Made by a program: the position numbers and the translations under genes
Shown: piece by piece, positions 20,252-29,322 of the stretch
How the letters are laid out: every line of letters starts with the position of its first letter
Position numbering within the stretch: position 1 is the stretch's first letter
Notes under the pieces: model-generated
Databases searched by the model: none
What the model was told of the DNA's origin: nothing
The model's input: only the letters and a program-made list of their open reading frames with translations
DNA from: Chloroflexota bacterium
GTDB taxonomy: Bacteria; Chloroflexota; Dehalococcoidia; Lucifugimonadales; UBA3495
Direction of reading: 5' to 3'
DNA length: 38,799 nucleotides
Assembly: GCA_002698265.1 (NCBI GenBank)
Contig: NZVX01000069.1
Coordinates: forward strand, 14,449-53,247

Positions 20252-21064
20252 TCAGATCATGATGTTCATCTGATTGACGATGGTATTGCCCAGAGCCGTG
20301 TCACCGGAGACGGTGACCTTGCCAGAGGTGAGGGCTTCGGAGGGGTCCCAGCGGCCGCATCCTAGGCAGACGAACGTCTCGACATCTGTGGTTATCGTGA
20401 CAGTTGGCGAATCCGGCTCTGCGTCCAGCTCTTTTCCCCGGCCGCCCTCTACCGCCACGGGGACTACGCTGCCTGCCACGCCGGTGATGTTAAAGACTGC
20501 AGTGACACCGTCCGGAGCTTGGGCTTTCCTGGCGGTCACGAAGGGCAGCGCCCGGGCGATCCGGCCCACCGAATGAGAGGCCACCGGGCCCTCTAGCTCG
20601 CCAGGTATGCCCAGCGCACGGCGGATGTCCTGCTCATGGACCCAGGCGTCGAAGATTCGGATGCGCACGAATTCGGTGATCGTTCCGGGACCGATGGGCG
20701 TCTGAGTCTCGGCCGCGAATCCGTCATCGCTCAGGCCCTTGAGGAACGTCAGACGTTGGCCGGTCAACTCACGGAACTCATCCAGGACATGTTGTCCGAG
20801 CCAGGAACGGCGAAAGTCGACCACCACTTCATTGGACTGGCCGACATCGTTCTTGACGTGGGAGGTATCTTGCGGTGTGTGGTCAGGCCGGGGATTGCCC
20901 AAAATTCCGGACTCGGCGCCCACCAAGTGGGAAACCTGGTCCTGGACCGACCAGCCGGGGCAGTCGGTGGGCGTTTTCCATTGGGATTCAGTGAGGGGAG
21001 AGCACAACGAGTCTATAGAACTCCAAACGTATTCCATCAGATCGACCACTTGCTGGTTGCCCAT
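20252..21064 (-). CDS. Maleylpyruvate isomerase family, mycothiol/DinB-like protein
   Basis: 270 aa. The N-terminal MDMPI/DinB-like four-helix domain starts WSSIDSLCSPLTESQWKTPTDCPGWSVQDQVSHLVG, where His36-equivalent, Glu and the later WVHEQDIRRALG provide the metal site. The C-terminal part (VTITTDVETFVCLGCGRWDP...GKVTVSGD) is SCP2-like. The family covers thiol-dependent isomerases and many uncharacterised proteins; the true reaction is unknown. Its start lies only 29 bp after the redoxin stop, so the two are probably one transcript. Confidence 0.8.
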   Translation of the reverse strand: MGNQQVVDLMEYVWSSIDSLCSPLTESQWKTPTDCPGWSVQDQVSHLVGAESGILGNPRPDHTPQDTSHVKNDVGQSNEVVVDFRRSWLGQHVLDEFRELTGQRLTFLKGLSDDGFAAETQTPIGPGTITEFVRIRIFDAWVHEQDIRRALGIPGELEGPVASHSVGRIARALPFVTARKAQAPDGVTAVFNITGVAGSVVPVAVEGGRGKELDAEPDSPTVTITTDVETFVCLGCGRWDPSEALTSGKVTVSGDTALGNTIVNQMNIMI

Positions 21065-21093: not shown

Positions 21094-21594
21094 TTAGTGG
21101 GCCGCGCCCTCTTCTTCCTTCCGGATATTCTCCCGGCGGGTGATCAAGCGGATGGCCTCGTCGGCGCCCATGCGTCCCACCGGCCCCGAAGCGTACATGG
21201 CGCCCAGCACCGTGCCGTCCCGTCCTAACAGGAACTCGGTGGGCTGGATGTAACCAGCCCCCCCTGACCACCATGATCCCAGCAGGTCGCCGTCGGCTTT
21301 CGTCGCGTCATAGGCCATGGGGAAGGTCAACTTATTGTTATCGACGACTTCCTGTGCCAGTTCTTTGGTGTCAACGCTGACTGCGTAGGTCGTCACTCCC
21401 AGTTCTTCCAGTTCCGCTTTGTTCGCTTCCCATTCGGCTAACTGCCGATTGCAGTAGGGTCACCAATGGCCCCGGTAGATCAGCACCGCTGTGTACCGGG
21501 TGGGTGCATCGTCGGGAAGGGTAATCTTACTTCCGTCCAGCATCTGAAGAGTGATCTTGGGGAGACGGTCTCCCTGTTGCAGCTTTTCCCCCAT
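21094..21594 (-). CDS. AhpC/TSA-like redoxin, candidate selenoprotein (UxxC)
   Basis: 166 aa if the in-frame TGA at codon 45 (21460-21462) is read as selenocysteine. AAGGAG lies six bases before ATG 21594 and the final stop is TAA. The TGA sits exactly at the catalytic Cys of the YRGHWCPYC motif, giving W-U-P-Y-C48-N. The frame is intact and conserved on both sides: GDRLPKITLQMLDGS before, LAEWEANKAELEELGVTTYAVSVD after, then the PTEFLLGRDGTVL redoxin core. A SECIS-like hairpin follows the UGA at the proper distance. It would reduce peroxides or disulfides in the cytoplasm. A sequencing error or nonsense mutation is the alternative, but the position makes chance unlikely. Confidence 0.78.
21431..21451 (-). 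promoter_or_regulatory. Bacterial SECIS-like hairpin
   Basis: On the minus strand, UCGGC pairs with GCCGA around the loop AGUUA, extended by CA/UG across one A-A mismatch. The loop begins 17 bases after the UGA, almost the spacing of E. coli fdhF, and has G then U at loop positions 2-3 as SelB-binding elements require. Confidence 0.6.
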
Positions 21595-21865
21595 CGTTAC
21601 TCCTTTTTGGCCGCGCCTGGCCTAGGTGCGTCCAATATACGATGCCTGACTCCAAAAAAGAGATGCGTGTTGCAACCTGTACAAGAAACTTTTCATGGCC
21701 GCTAACAGAATCGGTGCCAGCATAGCTGTGGCCCGAAGCTCCGTCAACAAATAAACAACACGAGGCGAGCCCTCCTTTGCCCTGGCCGCTCTGAAGTTAC
21801 TGCAATCGGTGCGCCGCCTAACTGAATCATGTCATAATACCGGCAACTTTTTAGGCAGATAGCAC

Positions 21866-28293: not shown

Positions 28294-29322
28294 CTAAACC
28301 GGTTCAGCCGGCCCCGCCTGACTAACCTCGATCATGGACTCCATCCGGTCCTTGGCTGCGCCGCTGTCTATGGTCTGGGCGGCAAGTTGCACCCCGTCGC
28401 GGATGTTGGAGACCAGGTCCCCCACCAGCAGCACCCCAGCGCTGTTCAGCAAAACGTAGTCCCGCACTGGACCGCCGGCGCCGTCCAACAACTCCCGCAT
28501 GGTCTTGGCATTGGCCGCCTTGTCTCCACCCCGGACCGCTTCGATCTCTGTGACCGGCAGGCCGGTGTCGGTCACAGAGATCGTCCAATTGCTCACTTTG
28601 CCACCAGCAACCTCCCACACTGATGTGTCCCCAGAGAGAGTCATCTCATCCAGGCCGCCGTCGCCGTGGACGATGATAGAGTGATGGGTGTCCAGCAGGT
28701 TCAAAACCGACGCCATCTGCTCGCTCAACTCCGGAAATGCGACGCCCACCAGCATCGACTGCGCTCCAGCCGGGTTGGTCAACGGCCCCAGAATGTTGAA
28801 CACGGTCCGGATGCCTATCTCCCGGCGTACCGGCCCGGCGTGGCGCATAGACGGATGGAAAGCCTGGGCAAACATGAACCCTATGCCGCTTTCTCTGATG
28901 CAACGCTCCACGCCCTCGGGCGAAAGCTCGATCTTCACCCCCAGTTCTTCCAGTAGGTCGGCACTGCCGCAGGTACCCGAAGCAGCTCTGTTGCCATGCT
29001 TGGCAACTTTTAACCCAGCGCCCGCGGCAACAAAGGCCGCGGCGGTGGAGATATTAAACGTGTTCAGGCCGTCTCCGCCGGTACCCACTGAGTCCACCAA
29101 CATACCGTCTACGTTCACCCGCAGGGCGAATTCGCGCATAACGGTGGCCATACCGGCGATCTCTTCGGTGCTCTCACCCTTGAGCCGGAGTGCCGTCAAG
29201 AACGAGCCCAACTGCGCCTGGGTAGCCTCGCCGGACATGATCTGCCGCATGACCGACGCAGCGTCGTCCATAGACAGGTGTCTGCCTGAGACCACTATGT
29301 CTATCGCTTCCCTGATTTCCAA
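28294..29322 (-). CDS. trpD: Anthranilate phosphoribosyltransferase
   Basis: 342 aa. The PRPP site GTGGDGLNTFNIST and KHGNRAASGTCGSADLLE are present, as is RPVFNILGPLTNPA-type sequence. Translation probably begins at TTG 29322, with AGGAGC about eight bases upstream; no in-frame ATG is better placed. Confidence 0.95.
   Translation of the reverse strand: MEIREAIDIVVSGRHLSMDDAASVMRQIMSGEATQAQLGSFLTALRLKGESTEEIAGMATVMREFALRVNVDGMLVDSVGTGGDGLNTFNISTAAAFVAAGAGLKVAKHGNRAASGTCGSADLLEELGVKIELSPEGVERCIRESGIGFMFAQAFHPSMRHAGPVRREIGIRTVFNILGPLTNPAGAQSMLVGVAFPELSEQMASVLNLLDTHHSIIVHGDGGLDEMTLSGDTSVWEVAGGKVSNWTISVTDTGLPVTEIEAVRGGDKAANAKTMRELLDGAGGPVRDYVLLNSAGVLLVGDLVSNIRDGVQLAAQTIDSGAAKDRMESMIEVSQAGPAEPV

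Follow-up and report, generated by a model that had tools for sequence, protein, structure and literature searches.

A redoxin gene of a SAR202-type marine bacterium with an apparent stop codon almost certainly read as selenocysteine

A redoxin gene of a SAR202-type marine bacterium (Chloroflexota, Dehalococcoidia) is interrupted once, within its active-site motif, by TGA. Does this codon end the protein, is it an error, or does it encode an amino acid, and if so, what kind of protein results? Our answer to the first part is that the apparent stop at codon 45 is almost certainly read as selenocysteine (Sec). The gene lies in a stretch of 38,799 nucleotides, which was analysed as a whole and is called the window here; the features discussed are collected in Table 1.

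Reading frame of the redoxin gene

The preliminary description of this DNA had seen a single frame running from a ribosome-binding site to a TAA and broken only by TGA at codon 45, with sequence typical of the family on both sides, and it had expected gene finders to split or truncate the gene. All three points held. The translation agrees with this frame, the end of AAGGAG and the ATG are 5 bases apart, and the orthologues agree with the window redoxin in length and start. Translated from the minus-strand frame, the context of codon 45 reads YRGHW-U-PYCNRQLAEW. In Pfam, the read-through protein matched AhpC-TSA (1.3e-20) and Redoxin (3.3e-15); both matches extend across the TGA and cover about 120-126 residues. 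The PF00578 score was 74.1 bits against a cut-off of 26. When every TGA of the window was scanned, many chance read-through pairs appeared, and the sole UxxC redoxin was the gene at 21094-21594. The standard ORF list contains just a 100-aa fragment with a GTG start (21094-21396), downstream of the TGA. Since ordinary annotation reduces the gene to this fragment, the redoxin function is hidden in these MAGs.

Table 1. Features of the redoxin locus (positions in the window)
Feature	Position	Strand	Basis
Prx-like (AhpC/TSA) redoxin gene, complete, 166 aa including Sec45	21094..21594	-	ATG 21594 to TAA 21094
In-frame TGA, codon 45, read as selenocysteine	21460..21462	-	homologue conservation
Active-site motif U45-P-Y-C48 (UxxC)	21451..21462	-	sequence and helix position
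Predicted bacterial SECIS hairpin UCGGC-AGUUA-GCCGA	21434..21448	-	codon lock and covariation
Ribosome-binding site AAGGAG	21600..21605	-	sequence
MDMPI/DinB-type gene	20252..21064	-	Pfam PF11716 9.8e-25

Conservation of the TGA among homologues

When 50 family genomes were searched in all six frames, 36 full or near-full orthologues were recovered, that of the window included, and every one of them carries the in-frame TGA. Codon 45 was also read directly in 28 family relatives and in the window, and was TGA throughout. An independent collection comprised 56 Chloroflexota (SAR202/Dehalococcoidia) loci with 43-90% identity, from records titled SAR202 cluster, Dehalococcoidia, Chloroflexi and, in one case, Caldilineales. 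Here, too, codon 45 was TGA in 56/56; this was established by the motif in 51 loci and by hand in five, whose motifs are UGYC, USYC, UTNC or, in a degraded copy, UPYC. The collection and the 50-genome set overlap, some records evidently being identical genomes. A Cys version of the redoxin was not found within the family among the orthologues of either set.

The alignment of homologues at codon 45 that the preliminary description had suggested gave TGA in the close relatives and TGC or TGT in more distant ones, which come from other Chloroflexota families (L160-L164). Judged from these sequences, TGA in the SAR202 lineage with Cys codons further out is the classical Sec/Cys pattern. Its retention in all 28 relatives and all 56 loci excludes chance and sequencing error; these many independent assemblies take the place of the read support at 21460-21462 for which the preliminary description had asked. 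Recoding of the UGA at codon 45 is strongly supported by this comparison.

Fold, motif and probable function

The AlphaFold model, computed with 48 orthologues, reached a pLDDT of 89.8 and a pTM of 0.86 and places Sec45 just before the N-terminus of the first long helix (residues 46-57). The best fold matches in the PDB were Bcp/AhpC peroxiredoxins (Bcp4, 3hjp, TM-score 0.81) and ResA-type oxidoreductases; the best match by sequence was ResA (4nmu, 8.1e-8). Most orthologues have FYRGHWUPYC, the window IYRGHW, and the peroxiredoxin pattern is FYPxxxTxxC. When the two are aligned, C48 falls on the peroxidatic position and Sec45 on that of the Thr. The PxxxTxxC/TxxU motif is absent from R41-G-H-W-U-P-Y-C, in which both the Pro and the Thr are missing. 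The preliminary description had placed the TGA exactly at the catalytic Cys. It does lie in the active-site motif of a redoxin, but not at the classical peroxidatic Cys of peroxiredoxins: Sec replaces the Thr of TxxC. Because Sec45 occupies this place, the protein is assigned to a thioredoxin-like UxxC subtype, and a selenol where classical peroxiredoxins have Thr makes the classical peroxidase mechanism less likely.

Could the selenoprotein nevertheless work chiefly as a peroxidase, in the manner of a peroxiredoxin, peroxide being attacked by U45 or C48? It belongs to the AhpC/TSA family, its closest structures include the peroxiredoxins named above, and its C48 stands opposite the peroxidatic Cys of a peroxiredoxin (FYPGDFTPVC in L158 vs FYRGHWUPYC). 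However, the PxxxTxxC signature is lost, with Arg41 in place of the Pro and Sec at the Thr position; moreover, the UxxC motif is of the thioredoxin type, and the literature keeps this Prx-like type apart from the TxxU peroxiredoxins (PMC1088965). We regard a mainly peroxidatic role as rather unlikely, though it deserves consideration. From motif and model, we infer that disulfide exchange via a U45-C48 selenenylsulfide is favoured over classical peroxidase chemistry.

In the favoured account, SelB with Sec-tRNA(Sec) recodes the UGA of codon 45 under the direction of a predicted SECIS hairpin, which starts about a dozen bases further on within the coding sequence. A catalytic cycle can be inferred from the fold and the motif. 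The selenolate of U45 would attack a disulfide (or a peroxide), C48 would resolve the intermediate as the selenenylsulfide, and a cellular thiol or the thioredoxin system would reduce the latter. As far as fold and motif tell, the substrate may be a disulfide or a peroxide.

A SECIS-like hairpin downstream of codon 45

The orthologues share a hairpin with the consensus NCGGC-AGUUR-GCCGN, in which the G of the small loop is invariant. In the window the SECIS-like loop with this conserved G occupies 21439-21443, and the core stem starts at the 15th base, counting from the U of UGA. A small apical loop containing a G is a feature of bacterial SECIS elements and was used as such by the Sargasso Sea study (PMC1088965). 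The codons underneath are nearly frozen: codons 50-53 (R-Q-L-A) are CGG in 46/48, CAG in 48/48, TTR (TTA or TTG only) in 48/48 and GCC in 46/46, and elsewhere in the gene the same four amino acids show free synonymous codon use. The relative synonymous entropy was 0.30 at the conserved codons 46-53 vs 0.76 at 42 other entries (Mann-Whitney p = 2e-4), the latter including the TGA codon itself with an entropy of 0. The closing pair of the hairpin is GC in 26, UA in 12 and unpaired in 7 of the 45 distinct sequences. The observed covariation was reached by 0/500 shuffles, a control that leaves relatedness in. Folded as a single sequence, the SECIS region of the window was no better than shuffles (z -0.78). 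Rfam gave no match at the redoxin locus; to our knowledge, none of its SECIS models is designed for bacterial elements.

A second hairpin (columns 6-12/18-25), which excludes the one with the AGUUR loop and is excluded by it, also fits the conserved bases. It pairs well, but no compensation is seen in its variation, and about one fourth of the sequences have lost its outermost pair (column 6). The AGUUR-loop hairpin is preferred.

Selenocysteine machinery

As a check, the preliminary description had proposed a search for selA, selB, selC (tRNA-Sec) and selD. In the genome bin of the window, which is 78.5% complete and consists of 106 contigs, this search succeeded for selD (380 bits; L056, contig C84, 6099-7019), which itself has an in-frame TGA at the catalytic position (SHCAGUAAK). 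The model searches did not find selA, selB or tRNA-Sec in the bin; all three are present in relatives. The matches to the tRNA-Sec model in the bin (<=47.3 bits) are called tRNA-Ser(TGA), Arg, Ser, Tyr and others by ARAGORN, and those to the selB model (best 186 bits) stay below the cut-off, the open frame, at 395 aa, being EF-Tu-sized and not SelB-sized.

Contig C53 of the bin aligns at 87% with the sequence that precedes selB in a congener (L019, 153-1340). The alignment runs to base 29243 of 29244, selB of the congener starts at 1501, and C53 ends about 160 bp short of the position of selB in this neighbouring species. As the alignment reaches the end of the contig, selB would start just past it. 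Nothing in the bin properly corresponds to the sequences on either side of selA, a sign that DNA is missing and not that the gene was lost. In the genomes of the same family, selB was found in 44/50 and selA in 42/49. A tRNA-Sec scoring at least 62.9 bits was present in 39/49, with the anticodon TCA in 10/10 checked; in the relatives it is not adjacent to selA or selB. Nearly the whole SAR202-type family is thus seen to encode selenium insertion. The preliminary description had said that a complete genome without selABCD would refute Sec; the genome at hand, an incomplete bin with selD and with gaps at selA and selB, does not refute it. In the genome G040, from the same genus and 75% complete, neither the redoxin nor selA, selB or a convincing match to tRNA-Sec was found, which may reflect either its incompleteness or a true loss of Sec use.

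The absence of selA, selB and tRNA-Sec from the bin would fit an account in which the UGA is a regulated stop: a regulatory or leader product of 44 N-terminal residues would be made, and near-cognate read-through with Trp or Cys would give some full protein. We consider this very improbable, since the missing Sec genes map to assembly gaps, the codons are locked as for a SECIS element, and the homologues carry Cys, not Trp. Even less credit can be given to a pseudogene, that of a Cys redoxin in which the TGA arose by nonsense mutation or by an error of sequencing. One relative does have a clearly degraded second copy (L154), but the identical TGA recurs in dozens of independent assemblies, the downstream frame is conserved at the protein level, and the family is without any Cys version. 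A reassignment of UGA in the lineage (e.g. to Trp or Gly), for which we found no supporting point, is likewise a negligible prospect, since Pfam-identified genes of the window such as the MDMPI gene end in TGA, from which it follows that the code is not reassigned, the invariant W44 next to the TGA is TGG, and Sec machinery occurs widely among the family genomes.

Taken together, we are highly confident that the gene encodes a selenoprotein made by SelB/SECIS recoding, with a peroxiredoxin/thioredoxin fold and most likely acting as a thiol:disulfide oxidoreductase.

Relation to known selenoproteins

That Sec-containing Prx-like proteins are established in bacteria, as stated in the preliminary description, is borne out: selenoproteins of this type form a known family and not a new one. 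UxxC proteins of this kind are known from ocean metagenomes as the "Prx-like protein" of the Sargasso Sea study (PMC1088965), were named "Prx-like 1" in the GOS study (PMC2398784) and appear as "Prx-like thiol:disulfide oxidoreductase" in a 2026 review (PMC13188914). The redoxin is best explained as a member of this "Prx-like UxxC" family. Like these proteins, it has a PF00578 domain, a UxxC centre, an in-frame UGA, a SECIS-like hairpin and Cys homologues. Unlike the published records, it comes from a named lineage, the SAR202-type Dehalococcoidia, in which every copy found has Sec.

Two other groups are more distant. The Sec-containing peroxiredoxin PrxU (TxxU) has the fold and superfamily in common with the window redoxin, but there Sec replaces the peroxidatic Cys, whereas here it replaces the Thr; the NCBIfam score for PrxU was 26 bits against a cut-off of 270. 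With the ResA/TlpA thiol:disulfide oxidoreductases the protein shares a CxxC-type centre and the thioredoxin-like fold, but it lacks their N-terminal secretion or anchor segment (it starts with MGEKLQQGDRLP), and its NCBIfam score for the ResA/TlpA type was far under the cut-off.

Among the open-licence literature, we found no paper that treats SAR202 and selenoproteins together, and the fixed selenium form of the redoxin in this lineage seems little described. New, as far as the sequences tell, is the lineage's use of Sec in the redoxin without exception, along with its further predicted Sec redoxins.

Gene neighbourhood

The MDMPI/DinB-type gene starts 29 bp downstream of the redoxin on the same strand and is followed by two MFS transporters. 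It is probably co-transcribed with the redoxin. The pair occurs in 27/86 fetched loci (from two overlapping collections), mostly in closer relatives, and the MDMPI neighbours listed there have 53-86% identity. Possibly, the MDMPI/DinB-type protein is a thiol-dependent partner of the redoxin and links it to thiol chemistry. The degraded second redoxin copy (G042:C128:10161-10647), which has two in-frame TGAs and has lost its frame, also adjoins an MDMPI gene; the intact copy lies about 10 kb away.

Further selenoproteins of the lineage

An open-frame-filtered search of the window's own genome for W-TGA-x-x-TGY returned the window redoxin and a TlpA/AhpC-type redoxin with the motif WUAVC on contig C93 (L256, 6900-8300). 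The latter is a UxxC redoxin (FFFATWUAVCRSEL; Pfam AhpC-TSA 2.3e-13) with its in-frame TGA at minus-strand position 771 of the locus and is likely a further selenoprotein of this genome. The relatives have many paralogous redoxins with TGA, in motifs such as FYRGFWUPVC, APWUPHC and AYWUPPC, and the lineage looks rich in Sec redoxins.

A wider interpretation, which we put forward tentatively and would not yet bet on, is that the SAR202-type Dehalococcoidia, which abound in the ocean, have been overlooked as a lineage rich in selenoproteins, with a fixed Sec machinery and several Sec redoxins that expanded within the lineage, and that the window redoxin, of which no Cys form exists, may serve low-molecular-weight thiol chemistry together with the co-encoded DinB/MDMPI-type thiol enzyme. 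The Sec redoxin would concretely tie redox metabolism to the supply of selenium in a group common in the ocean. In the paralogous redoxins L176-L194 of the family, sometimes two in a row (L176, L179, L183), the TGA stands in UPVC, UTTC, UPHC or UPPC motifs.
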